Positions 49,871 through 57,753 of a stretch of DNA of 64,000 nucleotides are shown here, piece after piece. The translations under genes and the position numbers were made by a program. The DNA lies in NCBI RefSeq assembly GCF_000744705.1, contig NZ_JQML01000001.1:9744017-9808016 (forward strand), written 5' to 3'. The notes beneath the pieces were generated by a model, which did no database searches, was not told the DNA's origin, and saw only the letters and a list, made by a program, of their open reading frames with translations. The DNA is from Streptacidiphilus albus JL83. Its GTDB lineage: Bacteria; Actinomycetota; Actinomycetes; Streptomycetales; Streptomycetaceae. Position 1 is the stretch's first letter. Each line of letters begins with the position of its first letter.

Positions 49871-50638
49871 CCGACTCCGCCGCAGCGCCACGGTCGGGCT
49901 CGGCCGGGCGCTGCTGTCCCGGATGACCGGCGGTACCCCTGGGTCGCCCTCACCGTCAGCACGCACCGTCCACTGTTCTGGTTCCTCGGCCGCCCGGGCC
50001 TGCCCTCCCTGACCGACCTGACCGACCTGACCGACCTGACCGACCTGACCGACCTGGCCGGCCGACGGCTTGCGGTGCACGTCCCCCACACCGCACCCGG
50101 ATGCTTCGCCCGCATCGTGCTGCGCCGGGCCGGTCTCGACCCGGACCGCGACGTCCACTGCGTCGTCCGGCGTCCCGGCGACTACGGCATGGACCTGGGC
50201 CAACTGCAGGACAGCGGGATCGACGCGGCCTTTGTCGGCGGCACCATGGCGCCGGAGGCGGTGGCTGCCGAGCACGGCGGGCGGGTGCTGGCCCGGGTCG
50301 GCGACCACTTCCGGATCCCCACCGTGGGCGTGGCCGTCGATCCCACTCACATCGAGCCGGGCGACCCCGCTGTCCAGGCCGCCGTGCGAGCACACAGGCG
50401 CGCCCTGCGGGTGATCCGCAACGATCCCGACACCACGGTGCGGTACATCCGGACATTCCTCGGCCGACTTACCGAGGACGAGGCCCGAGCCCACTACGAG
50501 ACGTTCATCGCACCGTACTTCAGCCCCGACGGCCAGGCGGACCTCGTAGTCGGGACCACTGCCATTGCTGCGGTCGCCGCCGAACTCGGCTTGCCCGCGA
50601 CCGTCACCGCGGCCGAGTTCTACCGCACCGCACCCTGA
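49871..50638 (+). pseudogene. 5'-truncated ABC transporter substrate-binding protein (NMT1/SsuA type)
   Basis: The frame ending at 50638 has the C-terminal two thirds of an SsuA/THI5-like solute-binding protein: RPLFWFLGRPGLPSLTDL, then GRRLAVHVPHTAPGCFARIV, LRRAGLDPDRDVHCVVRRPG, and FLGRLTEDEARAHYETFIAP. The in-frame stop at 49866-49868 and the lack of a start or signal peptide show that the N-terminal lobe is lost. An in-frame 9-bp tandem repeat (50009-50053) adds five Leu-Thr-Asp units in the loop before the AGRRLAV block. Such proteins usually bind alkyl sulfonates, taurine or thiamine precursors. No permease or ATPase gene is adjacent. Confidence 0.65.
50009..50053. repeat. In-frame 9-bp tandem repeat, five units
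   Basis: Five exact copies of CTGACCGAC head to tail, giving (Leu-Thr-Asp)x5 in the remnant substrate-binding protein. The last unit is followed by CTGGCCGGC, its natural counterpart in that family, so the extra copies look like slippage expansion. Confidence 0.95.
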
Positions 50639-51106: not shown

Positions 51107-51633
51107 GCACCGGACCGGCCGTAGCCAGTCCTCTCTGAACATCCGTATCCGCGGGGCATCATGAGGAGCATGGACGCGCGCACCAACGCCCCACGCCCGA
51201 TCCGTACCCACCGGTCGCGAACGACTGCAGGATGGCGTATTCGTGGGTGGGCCAAGCGGCTCGTACCGCCTGGCGAGGCCGGACACTGGCACCACCCGAC
51301 ACAGGGCGTGCCGGGACCGGCTGCGACGCATCCGACTTCGAGTGGGACGAGAACGACTTCGACGTCCGCTGCCCCCGCATCTTGTGACTGAGCGCTAGAT
51401 GGTCGGCCAGCATGGTCGAGCGGATCGTGTTTGTCGGATCTCTCGGAGTCGGCCGCATCCTTACGGTCGTCGCGGATGCCAAGTACTCTCGGTTCGTGGC
51501 CAGTTGTTGTGGCGTCGAGAGCTTGGCGGGTCCGCCGTGATGTGTGGGACCGTCTGAGGGAAATGGCCTGTTCAGCGCGTTGCGCCGTTCAGTCGCGGTC
51601 CCGAGTCCGCGTCGACGGGGGGAGGAGCGGTGC
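51107..51633. other. Intergenic region before the three-gene unit
   Basis: About 530 bases. Frames on both strands are Arg/Ser/Pro-rich and mutually shadowing; none starts with a ribosome-binding site. The piece 51350-51540 is lower in GC and may include the promoter of the downstream unit. GGAGGAG at 51621-51627 is the ribosome-binding site of the first gene. Confidence 0.45.
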
Positions 51634-52101
51634 GTGCTCACTGAAGTTGCGGCGATCGGCTACGCGACGGTCGGGGCAGCCACGCTCCAAGGGCTGGTGT
51701 TCCTGGAGCGCCTGCGTCGATGGCAGGCCGCACGCCAGTCGGCGCGCGCCACTCTCGGGGCCGGGGCTGAGCTGCCTGCACTGTCCGCGTTCGTCGACGC
51801 TCCGGCGGACCTGGCCGTGGCCTGCGCCAGCACGGCGTTCGGTGCCCTCGGCGGCTGGCTGCTCGCCGGCGAGATCAGCGGCGTCCCGCTTGCACTGATC
51901 GCCGGGGCCGCCGCCCCCGAACTGCTCGCGCACGTTCTCCGGAGCACCTCGTTGATGAATCTGCTGCTCAGCCGTGCGGGGGCGGCCCAGGCCGAACCCG
52001 CGGCGCGCGCGGACGGCGCTCCACCCGATGCGGCCGGCACGCGCGACGCGCCTGAGGCAGCCGGCCCGGGCGCTGCGCCGATCGAACAGGGAACATCATG
52101 A
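51634..52101 (+). CDS. Small membrane protein, first gene of the S16-WD40 unit
   Basis: 155 residues from a GTG with GGAGGA 7 nt upstream. There are two or three hydrophobic segments: AAIGYATVGAATLQGLVFLE near the start, DLAVACASTAFGALGGWLL in the middle, and GVPLALIAGAAAPELLAHVL. They are followed by an Ala/Pro/Asp-rich, probably cytoplasmic tail of about 45 residues. It looks like an integral membrane subunit. The stop TGA is inside the start of the next gene (ATGA), so the two are translated together. I do not recognise a family. Conserved position beside a membrane-anchored WD40 protein would support a shared complex; that is inference. Confidence 0.7.
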   Translation: MLTEVAAIGYATVGAATLQGLVFLERLRRWQAARQSARATLGAGAELPALSAFVDAPADLAVACASTAFGALGGWLLAGEISGVPLALIAGAAAPELLAHVLRSTSLMNLLLSRAGAAQAEPAARADGAPPDAAGTRDAPEAAGPGAAPIEQGTS

Positions 52102-52892
52102 CCACGCGAGGCTCGGCGACCAGGAACGGATTCGGCGACCGCCTCCTCGCATCCTTCCTTGGAACCCTTGGAACCCCCGGAGACCTTGGAACCCCCAGAG
52201 ACCTTGGAACCCCCGGAGACCTTGGAGATCGAAGCGGGACGCGGGCGGCCGGGCACCGTCGACACGCAGGCTACGGGTTCGGCCGGCGTTTCCTCGCATC
52301 CTTCCTGAGGGTCGATCTACCGCATCAGACGCGGGCGGCCGGGATGCCCTGGGCGGCCCCACCCGCTGCGGTGCGGCGGCCGGGGTCGCCGTGGTTCTCC
52401 CTGCCCACGGTGCGCCCGGTGACGGCGAACACGGTGATGGCGGCCTCGGGCGAGCGGATCGCCGCCGCGCAGTCGCCGGACGGCTCGGTGGAGTTCTCCC
52501 TGTACCGCGAGGCCGGCGGCCCGGAACCGGACTACGCACTCGAAGTCGTGCTGCGCTCGGCGACCACGTTCCCGGCGCTCGTCCAGGTCAGGTATCCGGC
52601 CGAGGGGCAGGTCCGGCCGGCCGACCTGATCATCCCGGTCATCGCCGCACCACTGGGACTCCCGACAAGCCGGATCACCCTGCCGGGCTTCGTCCCAGGC
52701 CTGGCCTGGGAGAGCGCCGGGTTGATCACCCCGGATGCGGCGGCGACGCTCGGCCAGTGCGCTATCGAAGCCTCCATCGCCGCAGCCTCGACCAGAGCGA
52801 CGCTCGACGCATGGAAGCGGGTCTGCGCAGGCGGCGACGCCTTGGCCGCAGTGGCCGCCCTGGCCGCCTTGGCCGAGGGGATACAGGAGTGA
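52098..52892 (+). CDS. Unknown protein with internal duplication, second gene of the S16-WD40 unit
   Basis: 264 residues. Two copies of a GFGxRxLASFL motif (NGFGDRLLASFLG near residue 11 and YGFGRRFLASFLR near 59) flank a DNA-level repeat that codes for LGTPGD units. The C-terminal 150 residues are ordered and beta-rich: AAAQSPDGSVEFSLYREAGG, YALEVVLRSATTFPALVQVR, YPAEGQVRPADLIIPVIAAP, then two Ala-rich helices. No signal peptide or membrane segment. The start overlaps the previous stop by 4 bp and the end overlaps the next gene by 4 bp (GTGA). No family is recognised; it could be an adaptor or effector of the S16-WD40 protein. Confidence 0.7.
   Translation: MTTRGSATRNGFGDRLLASFLGTLGTPGDLGTPRDLGTPGDLGDRSGTRAAGHRRHAGYGFGRRFLASFLRVDLPHQTRAAGMPWAAPPAAVRRPGSPWFSLPTVRPVTANTVMAASGERIAAAQSPDGSVEFSLYREAGGPEPDYALEVVLRSATTFPALVQVRYPAEGQVRPADLIIPVIAAPLGLPTSRITLPGFVPGLAWESAGLITPDAAATLGQCAIEASIAAASTRATLDAWKRVCAGGDALAAVAALAALAEGIQE
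52159..52230. repeat. 18-bp tandem repeat, three full units
   Basis: Three 18-bp units TTGGAACCCCC(G/A)GAGACC at 52168-52221, preceded by a half unit at 52159-52167 and followed by a partial one. In frame, it codes for LGTPGD, LGTPRD and LGTPGD of the second gene. A length-variable linker is likely. Confidence 0.95.
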
Positions 52893-55800
52893 ACCTGGCA
52901 CGCACCGCTCGCCGTCAGAGCCGGTTCCGCGAACTCGCCGAGCGGCAGTTCGCCGCACTCGACGCCGGACAGACCACCCCAACGGCGTTGCACGCCCGGC
53001 TCACCGGCCCCGAGCAGCTCTGGTGGCACTGCTGCCAAGAGGCCGTGCACTACGACGGCAGCTGGCTGGAGCACCGCGCACCGCAGATCCTCGAATTCAT
53101 CAAGGCCCGCTCCCTACCCGGCGACGGTGCGACGCGGCGCGCGGAGGCCACATACGAGGCCGCACAAATCCTGTGCCCACCAACGACGGACCAGGCCACC
53201 CGTCGACTGGACAAGGTCGCGGAGTACTGGGCCGATGCACCTGCCGCCGGGGTGTACCAGGGGCCGCGACCACGCTTCGACCTGCCGGACCTACCCGCCG
53301 GCTGGTGGCCCGCACGCCCCGGACCACTCGCCGGGGCCACGGAGTACGTCGCCGAGGCAACGGGGCACGCCGCGCGGGTACTCGGTCTTCTGTCGCTGCT
53401 CCACCTGGCAGAGAAACCGCGACGCGGCGTCAGGCCGGTGCGCGTGGCGGTCGTGTTCGCCGCAGCGCCGGGGAGCGGTGGGCAGGGCCGCCTGGCGTAT
53501 CTGGAGCTGCGCGACGCGCACATCGGTATCGCAGGGATCTTCCCCGACCCGGCGGCCGGGCACCCGGCCACCGATCACGCGTTCGCCACCGCCGTCGCCC
53601 GCGCCTGGTCCACCGTCGCGCCGCGCCAACGCGACCTGTGCGTCCTTTGGAGGCTGGCGTTCGTCGACGAGTCCGCAGCGGGGGCGGCGCGAGTCGACGG
53701 CATCGACGGCGGATCGCTCGGTGCGGCCTTCGCGTTGGCATTGCGCGAACTGACTCGGTACCCGCGGGACGTGCGGCCCGCGCTGCGCGCCGTGCACCAC
53801 TACTTTCACGGCTTCCGCCTGCGGACGGCGGTGACCGGAGCGCTCGACGCCGAAGGCGGACTGTCCGCGGTCGAATCGCTGGACGCGAAGGCCGAAGAGG
53901 CCCGCAGGCACGGTTGGCGGCTGGTCGCCCCGGTGGCGAACGCCGCGACCGGCACCGTCCCGCGCAGCGGGGTAGCCCTCGCGCGCACCGTGGCCGACGC
54001 CGACCGGCTGTCCCGGTACTGGAACCGCCGGCACCTCCTCGTCAGCGTCCTGGTGGCGGCGGCGCTGACCATTCCACCCGGGATCGTCCTGCACGAGAGC
54101 GACCAGCGGCTCGATCAGGCACAGGCCGACTCGACAGTCGCGATCTCCGATCAACTGGCTGCCACCAGCCTGACCACCGATGTGACCACTCCCGCCTCGG
54201 CCCGGCAACTGGCCCTGGCCGCCTGGGCGGAGTCACCGACCTCGGCAGCCGACGCGTCCATGGCCAAGCTGCTGTCGGAACAACAGCAGGACGGCATGCA
54301 CATCGGCTCCACGGACGGTTCCAACGTCACCACCATCGCTTTCGCCCCCGACGGCCGCCTCCTGGCCTCCGGTGGCCTCGACGGCTCCGTGCGGTTGTGG
54401 AATCCGCAGACCGGCAGTGCCGTCGACCGATCGGTCAGCGCGGGTGAACACAACCCCATAGACGCACTCGCCTTCACCGCGCAGGGCACGGTGCTCTCCG
54501 CCGTCGCCTGGGACGGAATGCTGCGCCGCTGGGAGGTGTCCGACCAGCACGAGATCGGCACACCTGTGCTTGCCGCTCCGGCCCTGTCCGGAGGGGGCGC
54601 GTTCGCGCCCGTCTTCAGTCCGAACGGCACTGTGCTGGCCACGTCGTACCAGAACCGGACCGTGCGACTGTGGAACACCGTGGCAGGAAAGGCGCTGTGC
54701 ACGATTCCGCTGGCCGGCTCGTCGAACCAGGTGCGTAGTGTGGCCTTCGATCCGGTCGACTCGGTGCTGGCCACGGCCGAATCGGACGACGACATCCAGT
54801 TCTGGAATCCGGACGACTGCCGACCGGACGGAGCCGCGATCGACCAGGGAACCTACAACGACTCGATCGCCATCGCCTTCAACGCCCGCGGCACGATGCT
54901 GGCCGCCACCGGGCTCAGCGGGTCGGTCCTCCTGTGGAATCCGATCAGTGGCGCTCGGGTCGGCACCCTGAGCCAGGGCGCCGACAGCACGAACTTCGCA
55001 GAGACGCTGGCGTTCTCCCCGGACGGTCGGCAGTTGGCCACCGGGAACCGTGACGGGACCGTGCGGCTCTGGAACCTTACGACCTCTCAGCAGTTCGCAC
55101 AGCCGGACGACTCGGTTGAGGGCATGGTGGTAGCCCTCGCACCGAACGGCGCGTTTCAGCAGCTCGCACAGTTGTCCGGCTCGGTTCAGGGCATGGTGGA
55201 CCAGGTGGCCTTCGACCCGAACGGCGCGTTCCTGGCCAGCGGCGCGAACGACGGCACCGTCCGACTGTGGTCGCTGCCGTCGCGCTTGCCGGTCGGCTCC
55301 GAGTACCAGTTCCCCCCCACCACCGGCGGCGTCGACGCCACCGCCTTCGACCCGGTCTCCCCGCTGATGGCGACGGCCGGAGGCATGGGGACGTTCCAGC
55401 TGTGGAGTACGGCGGACCCGCCCGAACCGGTCGGCAACGCGATCGATGCCGGCTCCGGATCAGGCCTCGACGCAGTCGCTTTCAGCAGGGACGGTCGCTA
55501 CCTGGCCTCCGGCGACGCGCACGGGACGATCCGGCTGTGGGACACGGCCGACTGGCAGGAGGTCGGCCCTCCGCTTCGCGCGACTCCCGCCACAGCGTGC
55601 CGGTCCCTCGCGTTCACCTCGGACGGAAGCGTCCTGGCCGCCGGGTACGACGACGACAGCATGCGCCTGTGGAACCTCGCGCCCGGATCCGGCTTCGGCC
55701 GACTGATCAGAACGGACCTCTCCGCGGGCTCCGACGGAGGGTCCGGGCTGCTGGTCGACCCGTCCGCCGACATCGTCGTCACATTCTCCGACAACGGCAC

Positions 55801-56353
55801 GGAACTGCGACGCTGGAACGGAAGCACCGGGGCGCCGATCGGGGCGCCGTACCGTTTCCCCGCCGCGTCCGACATGATCGACGTAGCCGCCTTCGATCCG
55901 GCGACCGGCCTACTGGCGATCGCCGCCGGGCCATTTCAGGTGACCTGGTGGAACCCGCTGACCGGGCGGCAGTCGGGCACGCCGTTCACAGTGGCGTCGT
56001 ACACGATCGCACTCGCGATCAATCCGAGTGGATCGCTCGTGGCCGTACTGGGAAGTGACCGTTCCGCCCAGCTCTGGAATCCCACCACAGGTCGACCCGT
56101 CGGCGCACCGATCCCGGTGAACAACCTCGACGCCGAACAGGTCTTCACCTTCACGCCGGACGGCTCGTCGCTATTCGCCTACGGCGGCCTCACCGGCGCC
56201 AGCCAGTGGCCGACGGCGACGTGGTCCGACCCGTACCAAGCCTTGTGCGACGAGGTCGGACCTTTGCCGGCAGTGCTCTGGCACCGCTACGTGTCCAACG
56301 ACGCGGAGCCCGCGATGTGTACCGGCTCGTCGCCGCAGGAGGCCGCTCCCTGA
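52889..56353 (+). CDS. Lon-protease-like (S16) domain - transmembrane - WD40 repeat protein
   Basis: 1154 residues from the GTG 52889. Residues 1-170 are helical, with LTGPEQLWWHCCQEAV. Residues about 180-352 read like an S16 (Lon) proteolytic domain: FALALRELTRYPRDV behind GGSLG (Ser276, where Lon has GPSAG), then RTAVTGALDAEGGLSAVESL and DAKAEEARRHGWRLVAPVAN (Lys334, aligning with the Lon dyad Lys). The Ser-Lys distance is about 15 residues longer than in Lon, because of an insert. One membrane helix (LLVSVLVAAALTIPPGIVL, about 383-401) follows Arg-rich sequence, placing the N-terminus inside. After the helix comes the SARQLALAAWAESPT linker common to STAND-WD40 proteins, then about 14 WD40 units (PDGRLLASGGLDGSVRLW type) to the end. 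Likely a membrane-bound protease-like sensor; partners are the two coupled genes. Confidence 0.8.
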   Translation: MNLARTARRQSRFRELAERQFAALDAGQTTPTALHARLTGPEQLWWHCCQEAVHYDGSWLEHRAPQILEFIKARSLPGDGATRRAEATYEAAQILCPPTTDQATRRLDKVAEYWADAPAAGVYQGPRPRFDLPDLPAGWWPARPGPLAGATEYVAEATGHAARVLGLLSLLHLAEKPRRGVRPVRVAVVFAAAPGSGGQGRLAYLELRDAHIGIAGIFPDPAAGHPATDHAFATAVARAWSTVAPRQRDLCVLWRLAFVDESAAGAARVDGIDGGSLGAAFALALRELTRYPRDVRPALRAVHHYFHGFRLRTAVTGALDAEGGLSAVESLDAKAEEARRHGWRLVAPVANAATGTVPRSGVALARTVADADRLSRYWNRRHLLVSVLVAAALTIPPGIVLHESDQRLDQAQADSTVAISDQLAATSLTTDVTTPASARQLALAAWAESPTSAADASMAKLLSEQQQDGMHIGSTDGSNVTTIAFAPDGRLLASGGLDGSVRLWNPQTGSAVDRSVSAGEHNPIDALAFTAQGTVLSAVAWDGMLRRWEVSDQHEIGTPVLAAPALSGGGAFAPVFSPNGTVLATSYQNRTVRLWNTVAGKALCTIPLAGSSNQVRSVAFDPVDSVLATAESDDDIQFWNPDDCRPDGAAIDQGTYNDSIAIAFNARGTMLAATGLSGSVLLWNPISGARVGTLSQGADSTNFAETLAFSPDGRQLATGNRDGTVRLWNLTTSQQFAQPDDSVEGMVVALAPNGAFQQLAQLSGSVQGMVDQVAFDPNGAFLASGANDGTVRLWSLPSRLPVGSEYQFPPTTGGVDATAFDPVSPLMATAGGMGTFQLWSTADPPEPVGNAIDAGSGSGLDAVAFSRDGRYLASGDAHGTIRLWDTADWQEVGPPLRATPATACRSLAFTSDGSVLAAGYDDDSMRLWNLAPGSGFGRLIRTDLSAGSDGGSGLLVDPSADIVVTFSDNGTELRRWNGSTGAPIGAPYRFPAASDMIDVAAFDPATGLLAIAAGPFQVTWWNPLTGRQSGTPFTVASYTIALAINPSGSLVAVLGSDRSAQLWNPTTGRPVGAPIPVNNLDAEQVFTFTPDGSSLFAYGGLTGASQWPTATWSDPYQALCDEVGPLPAVLWHRYVSNDAEPAMCTGSSPQEAAP

Positions 56354-56895: not shown

Positions 56896-56984
56896 AGCCT
56901 GCCGCGGACCAGGTCATCGACGACCTCTTCCCCGCGCTGGAGCAGGAGTTGACCACCACGGCCGCCTGGGCAGGCTATTGAGGC

Positions 56985-57753
56985 AGGCTCGGCGGTCCAT
57001 CACCGTGCGTTCGACGGCGCGGGTGAGGTTCTGCCACAAATGGAAGCGGTCCGCCGCCTGCTGGGCCTGGGGTGCGCCGGTGTCGCCGGCCTCCGCGTAG
57101 GCGCTGGCCCGGTCCCGGCAGATCACCTCGATCTGTGGGCGCGCGGCCAGCCAGGGGACGAGGGTGGCGCCGTCGCGTTCCGGGAGCAGATCCAGGACCC
57201 GGTGGGTGACCGCATCGGTGACCACCGTGCCGTAGATGTGGCCCTTGCGCAGAGCGAAGTCGTCGACCCCGACCGCTGCCGGGGCACCGACGGGACGGTC
57301 GGGCAGTTCCATCACGCGCCGCAGCAGAGTACTGCGGCTGCCGCCAATGCCCAGCAGCGCAGCCATCCGCGCACCGGCGCGGCCCGCGAGCGCCAACCCC
57401 AGCTCGGCGACCGCCGATCGTAGCCTTTCGGTGCTCTGCCCATGACGACGCGTCAGTCCGTTGATCTGCTCGACGAACGTGCGTCTTGGGCACGTCCCGT
57501 CCGGGCAGGCGAACCTGCGCACCCGTAGCGCGAGCACGATCTGCCGCCCCGCGGTCGGCAAATCGGCCGGGACGCGCAGGTAGGAACCGTGGACCCGCTC
57601 CGACCAGGCTCCACAGCCGGGGCAGACGGCACCGGCTGAAGTCGCCCCTGCCTGCACCCGCACCACGGGACTGCCCGCCTCAATGCAGACCACCGCCACC
57701 GCCGAGAGGGCTGGAAACAACAACTCGCGTATCAGGGACCAGGATTGCGTCAC
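56985..57753 (-). pseudogene. ISL3-family transposase, 3'-truncated
   Basis: From the start at 57753 the minus strand codes for about 256 residues of an ISL3 transposase: an N-terminal zinc ribbon ([20 protein letters not shown], then [16 protein letters not shown]), the helix-turn-helix, and the first part of the DDE domain ([59 protein letters not shown]). The remaining 150-250 residues, with the last catalytic Glu, are missing after about 56985, where IS3 DNA begins. Frame is intact up to that point. A terminal-repeat-like CAGACCCCACTTCGGACC near 57870 may be its outer end. Confidence 0.85.

Follow-up and report, generated by a model that had tools for sequence, protein, structure and literature searches.

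A putative Lon-like receptor protease with a membrane helix, a WD40 propeller and a near-constant partner protein in Streptacidiphilus albus

Organization of the locus

The stretch of Streptacidiphilus albus JL83 DNA considered here (the window; 64,000 nucleotides (nt), 107-171 kb from one end of a single 9.9-Mb contig) contains three overlapping genes, g1, g2 and g3. They encode a small membrane protein, a partner protein with a predicted beta-sandwich and a large protein that combines a Lon-like (S16) domain, one predicted membrane helix and a WD40 propeller (Table 1). An initial annotation of the window, made from the sequence alone, had described the genes as joined by ATGA and GTGA overlaps, which are both in place and recur in relatives: the two junctions are exactly -4 in 16 of 16 loci in which g1, g2 and g3 were all located, and the coupling is therefore not a matter of chance. 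In locus L094, both junctions are likewise -4, with GTGA at each; L028, recognized later as a three-gene locus, overlaps by 4 nt at g1/g2 but by 14 nt at g2/g3. When loci of all types are considered, the g2/g3 junction is -4 in 30 of the 33 that have a g2-type gene directly upstream on the same strand, the departures being L028, L083 and L093 (gene calls were made with a crude caller).

Table 1. Features of the g1-g2-g3 unit (window coordinates)
Feature	Position	Strand	Basis
Shine-Dalgarno-like AGGAG before g1	51623..51627	+	direct reading
g1, 155-aa accessory membrane module, GTG start	51634..52101	+	reading frame open over the span
ATGA overlap, g1 stop / g2 start	52098..52101	+	sequence, alignment of loci
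g2, 264-aa partner of g3, ATG start	52098..52892	+	reading frame open over the span
g2 residues 1-85, two short helical motifs (RLLASFLG; RRFLASFLRVDLP)	52098..52352	+	AlphaFold2 (AF2) model, alignment, twin-motif test
g2 residues 97-263, beta-sandwich plus C-terminal helices, constant domain	52386..52886	+	AF2 predicted TM-score (pTM) 0.64; HH links between groups
GTGA overlap, g2 stop / g3 start	52889..52892	+	sequence, alignment of loci
g3, 1154-aa Lon-transmembrane-propeller protein, GTG start	52889..56353	+	reading frame open over the span
g3 residues 1-160, helical N-terminal domain	52889..53368	+	AF2 model; no convincing Pfam match in 10 N-termini scanned
g3 residues 182-378, S16/Lon proteolytic domain	53432..54022	+	predicted fold, Foldseek, register with Lon
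g3 Ser276 in GGSLG, predicted nucleophile	53714..53716	+	kept in 48/48 loci
g3 Lys334 in LDAKAEEA, predicted general base	53888..53890	+	kept in 47/47 readable loci
g3 residues 383-401, predicted transmembrane helix	54035..54091	+	hydropathy 2.37
g3 residues 471 to about 1110, WD40 beta-propeller array	54299..56218	+	Pfam WD40 6.5e-59, 7 stretches

The Lon-like domain of g3

The initial annotation had staked its Lon-like region on the predicted fold, and in the AF2 model searched with Foldseek this fold is indeed S16-like, of the Lon proteolytic alpha/beta type. The top matches are to MtaLonC (21-22% identity over 167 residues), an ATP-independent Lon-like protease that shares its Lon fold with g3 but is soluble and is not known to have a membrane helix, propeller or operon partner; the Lon-like domains of RadA and ComM are also among the fold matches. 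The proposed Ser276/Lys334 dyad is present, in register with the Ser and Lys of Lon, and conserved (Table 1). In 28 loci, which came from a scan with two patterns, the conservation of the Ser is partly selected because one pattern held the Ser motif; the Lys was in neither pattern, and the genome searches for g3 with hidden Markov models (HMMs) used no motif pattern. Pfam Lon_C does not match window g3 itself, but in alignment A1, built from 12 of the 23 distinct sequences collected up to that stage, six members match it at E<=1, with a best value of 8.5e-5. When the host genome was searched with PF05362 (Lon_C) at E<=1, six other places were returned and window g3 was not. The resemblance to Lon is real, though below the reach of Pfam in the window sequence.

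The further proposal that this domain does without an AAA ATPase and replaces a STAND NTPase agrees with the N-termini of window g3 and nine other g3 proteins, none of which has an AAA or NTPase match. An ATP-dependent protease of the LonA/LonB type was rejected for want of any AAA+ match in these ten N-termini. A STAND-WD40 system, in which effector domain, linker and WD40 array follow one another as they do in g3, was rejected as well: no STAND match was found, the NTPase of STAND/NACHT-WD40 systems has no match in the g3 N-termini, and g3 residues 1-380 consist of the helical domain and the Lon fold. From sequence and model, g3 is best read as a putative ATP-independent receptor protease; its named relatives are annotated only as WD40 repeat or hypothetical proteins.

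Small proteins with a Lon-like domain were also seen in another family of the class (L044-L050). Their open frames of 251-274 aa, too short for an AAA ATPase, carry GGPSGG and GGI-x-x-K motifs; in two of the seven, a stop lies inside the match.

Membrane helix, propeller and topology

Behind the Lon domain, 46 of the 48 g3 loci encode a hydrophobic segment with a mean hydropathy above 1.6; L008 differs from the others in that its best-scoring segment is located farther along the protein. The two loci without it hold broken or split g3 copies, truncated after the Ser motif in L018 (8001-8435) and split near a contig end in L100, which fits an accessory, dispensable system. Lysine and arginine (K/R) are in excess on the Lon side of the helix in 38 of 46 loci (mean 4.8 vs 2.6), which favours the predicted orientation with the Lon domain in the cytoplasm and the propeller outside the cell. 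Among the Pfam matches on g3, the 25 listed of 47 are all of WD40 or propeller types. Window g3 is 55% identical to P0006 in residues 161-380 and 31% in the propeller part; for P0005 the corresponding values are 94% and 86%. Lower identity in the propeller would be expected of a sensor that tracks changing ligands, and weaker constraint would give the same picture.

g2, the near-constant partner

A gene of the g2 superfamily lies near g3 in 47 of the 48 loci, the exception being the broken L018; it mostly adjoins g3, and in some loci it is a few genes off or on the opposite strand. Given this and the 4-nt overlap in most direct-upstream cases, g2 and g3 form a near-constant pair. The superfamily is built from HMM hits plus HH comparisons, with some links transitive: the window type connects to group E (99.5), group E to the CATASP-linked group (97.7) and to type D (93.7), and the latter two to each other (91.3), whereas the direct links of window-type g2 are weak (48 to the CATASP-linked group, 58 to type D). 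Single-sequence comparisons attach L025 to group E (96.4) and L028 to the CATASP-linked group (97.9).

The constant beta-sandwich domain of g2 is possibly TRAF-like. Residues 1-60 are modelled with low and the rest up to residue 85 with intermediate confidence. Between the two helical motifs, window g2 (52150-52230) carries a short in-frame repeat, GTLGTPGDLGTPRDLGTPGDLG, which is missing from 15 aligned window-type relatives and may have expanded locally and recently. No sigma or anti-sigma family was matched by g1 or g2.

g1, a shared membrane module

Both small genes had been expected to stay alongside g3 as its partners. This holds for the 16 loci, L094 and L028, and for g2-type genes in general; g1 occurs in only 19 of the 48 loci, is exchangeable and is also used where there is no Lon gene. 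Window g1 has three weakly hydrophobic segments and a variable tail, its relatives having one to three segments. It has no Pfam match better than E 0.11, and none of 16 g1 members matched an EACC1-type family at E<=1 in Pfam, which includes an EACC1 model.

Among 297 genomes of the Streptomycetaceae, g1 was found in 39 (E<=1e-5), g3 in 13 (E<=1e-10) and window-type g2 in 10 (E<=1e-5); nine of these ten also contain g3. In the tenth, the match (E 6.0e-9) is confined to positions 1-64 of the g2 model and falls in the NACHT protein that follows g1, a likeness to STAND/NACHT-WD40 systems in that g1 plus the twin motif precedes a NACHT protein in this one genome. Twenty of the Lon-less g1 places found were fetched (L148-L167), and 17 have a callable following gene, which overlaps g1 by 4 nt in 16 cases and by 11 nt in one. 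An expression of the type R-R-hydrophobic-S/A-hydrophobic-G, composed after the sequences had been seen, was counted in the first 100 residues of each protein: at least two copies of this twin motif are present in 11 of the 17 g1 followers and in 11 of 16 window-type g2 proteins, compared with a mean of 0.2-0.3 and a maximum of 3 in 500 shuffles. In window g2 the expression detects one copy; the second, RRFLASFLRVDLP, is visible in the alignment. Ten followers were compared with Pfam, giving one NACHT protein (L156), one ParA-like ATPase (L158) and eight proteins without a match. Since the followers differ apart from the twin motif, their sequences suggest that g1 and the motif are a docking pair rather than g1 being a Lon-specific gene, and the g1 family may form an independent membrane docking system.

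Exchangeable neighbours and distribution

In other loci, different modules accompany the g2-g3 pair. HMMs grown from three seeds each detected an alpha/beta-hydrolase plus a caspase in 4 of the 48 loci (L022, L024, L025, L029) and CATASP-type g2 fusions in 5 (L026, L077, L078, L080, L081). Pfam confirmed Peptidase_C14 in both loci scanned (L022, L024), CATASP in L039, a shorter copy of the L078 locus, and matched the hydrolase, scanned in L022, only below its cut-offs (best E 0.0016). All five CATASP-type (type C) loci have a CATRA-N gene near g3, Pfam-confirmed in L077 and L080, and both of these CATRA proteins contain EAD1. A PolyA_pol-head-like gene is present in 6 of 48 loci by clustering (its Pfam match comes from the scan of L090 only) and S_4TM in one, L082. 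Four loci (L103-L106) share two further conserved genes, whose L103 copies have no Pfam match: by eye, one (542-614 aa, after g3) is lipoprotein-like and the other (195-244 aa, after the g2-type gene) resembles SLATT pore proteins. In the g1-type locus L014, an alpha/beta-hydrolase of the family found with the caspases lies on the other strand, with no caspase. No module was recognized in 8 of the 48 loci, with the broken L018 as one more.

The initial annotation had found no counterpart of this combination among the conflict systems known to it, STAND-WD40 and MoxR/VMAP-type. Relatives of the unit tie it to the known conflict-system network, because they carry caspase/alpha-beta-hydrolase, CATRA/CATASP/EAD1 and 4TM modules; the caspase/alpha-beta-hydrolase pairing is known from VMAP systems, according to the available text of PMC7159879. 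In ten chosen genomes, five of 13 CATRA-N hits are Lon-linked; by our own HMMs, a caspase-like gene is present at two of the other eight places and a Lon gene at none. In the window, g1-g2-g3 hold no recognized toxin, caspase or CATRA: neither g1 nor g2 matches CATRA, and none was found in the host genome, a weak negative as no positive control responded.

The distribution of g3 is patchy. It was detected in 15 of 394 genomes of the class at E<=1e-6, seven of these being weak matches to small Lon-like proteins, in the 13 of 297 family genomes mentioned above, in none of 13 other listed genomes of the genus, and in 5 of 35 and 11 of 250 genomes of two other families. In the large searches, no more than 7-13 candidates were scored in each genome, and absences therefore carry little weight.

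Two further observations concern the surroundings of the unit. Just downstream, at window 56917-57753 (- strand), lies an open reading frame that by eye is transposase-like; upstream, at about 50000-50060 (- strand), there is a short simple tandem repeat reading SVRSVRSVR, in a frame of doubtful coding status.

Proposed mechanism and alternatives

With a probability of about 60%, we read the unit as part of a conflict system, directed against invaders or leading to cell death, in which g3 acts as a receptor protease that spans the membrane once, with g2 as its substrate and the neighbours as exchangeable effectors. Such a system could operate in the following manner: The ATPase-less Lon domain of g3 would reside in the cytoplasm, joined by the single helix to the propeller outside. 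Binding of a ligand to the propeller would bring the Lon domains together or shift their position and thereby activate limited proteolysis, probably of g2. Through the two helical motifs in its flexible N-terminal part, g2 probably docks on the membrane protein g1; cleavage in this part would separate the constant domain from the dock, after which g2 might be released or g1 be freed to act on the membrane. The g2-g3 core would thus be the trigger and its neighbours exchangeable effectors or adaptors, since the same core sits with different modules in relatives.

Two alternatives touch the protein g3 itself. RadA and ComM, whose Lon-like domains serve as scaffolds and are not known to be proteolytic, are among its fold matches, and the domain might likewise act by binding and oligomerization only; this is improbable, given that 48 divergent loci show no exception to the Ser and 47 none to the Lys, and that a Lon-like protein of the same genome taken for ComM (L034) has, by eye, an Arg at the Lys position. 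Somewhat less improbable, though still unlikely, is an intracellular WD40 array, serving cytoplasmic sensing or as a platform for g1/g2 assembly: 8 of 46 loci lack a K/R excess on the Lon side, and relatives fuse the g2 domain to CATASP, presumably a cytoplasmic conflict protein, whereas the large majority of loci have the excess that predicts an outside propeller.

The other two concern the output. The same receptor protease might serve development or envelope-stress signalling, for instance by releasing g2 as a growth regulator, as CalpL frees a sigma-factor complex. The lack of a recognized toxin in the window genes agrees with this, and the available text of PMC11417357 describes CalpL/CalpT/CalpS as a sensor-linked Lon protease cutting an anti-sigma factor; the patchy presence and the linkage to caspase, CATRA/EAD1 and S_4TM modules fit conflict better, however, and with no sigma or anti-sigma match in either partner we hold such a role to be doubtful. 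Slightly more credit is due to the possibility that g1 is a membrane-damaging effector which g2 restrains until Lon cleavage of g2 frees it. In favour of this, g1 occupies the position of the S_4TM or caspase/hydrolase modules of other types and has one to three hydrophobic segments. Yet unrelated twin-motif proteins, among them a NACHT NTPase and a ParA-like ATPase, also follow g1 at Lon-less places, which a shared membrane dock explains equally well or better, and we favour g1 as the dock in the receptor-protease system outlined above.

Relation to known systems

In the available text of PMC11417357, CalpL/CalpT/CalpS resembles the g3 unit in joining a Lon domain to a sensor and in having partner genes, one of which is cleaved; it differs in its SAVED (cA4) sensor, its sigma/anti-sigma partners and its link to type III CRISPR. 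Assignment to the CalpL type was rejected: the Lon domain of g3 is followed by a short linker and the WD40 array instead of SAVED (among the 25 of 47 Pfam families listed, all of propeller types), and g1 and g2 have no sigma or anti-sigma match.

The caspase/EACC1 and CATRA systems are similarly membrane-linked, occur in multicellular bacteria and combine a constant peptidase with variable effectors, but the cores described in the available texts use caspase or trypsin-like peptidases (PMC7159879, PMC8195603). CATRA-N/C, CATASP, EAD1 and caspase genes neighbour g3 relatives; the two-gene EACC1-caspase system itself does not apply, the N-terminus of g3 being a helical domain and Lon rather than a caspase or cNMP cyclase.

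YlbL of Bacillus is, like g3, a membrane-anchored Lon protein without AAA+, with a Ser-Lys dyad and a small membrane protein as proposed target, and it needs its putative catalytic residues in vivo. Its protease domain is likely extracellular, a PDZ domain takes the place of the propeller and its role is in cell division (PMC6051672, available text). The PDZ-Lon type was rejected for g3, as ten N-termini gave no PDZ match and the modelled N-terminal domain is helical. A related idea with another peptidase is found in PMC10907252 (available text), where an S8 peptidase carrying WD40 repeats adjoins a STAND system.

We put at about even odds that the unit represents an undescribed class of conflict system, with a core of g2 and a receptor-like, ATP-independent Lon-transmembrane-propeller protease that would read signals across the membrane by proteolysis and recruit as effectors a twin-motif-docked small membrane protein, a caspase/alpha-beta-hydrolase, CATRA/EAD1, a 4TM effector or a nucleotidyltransferase-like protein. 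The literature searches listed no paper recognizable as a description of this combination; the novelty is provisional, as an earlier mention in the CATRA-defining work is possible, and the whole word Lon is absent from the main texts of PMC7159879 and PMC8195603.

Implications

Lon domains are mainly known as ATP-driven degraders, with CalpL, LonC and YlbL as the exceptions cited. If the proposed mechanism is true, the g3 unit is a bacterial counterpart of receptor-protease-adaptor immune signalling. The g1/twin-motif pair, common to NACHT and ParA-like proteins, hints at a membrane-docking code of general use in these networks, and a conserved family of transmembrane Lon receptor proteases, standing beside caspases or replacing them in related loci, would give bacterial immunity a new trigger enzyme.
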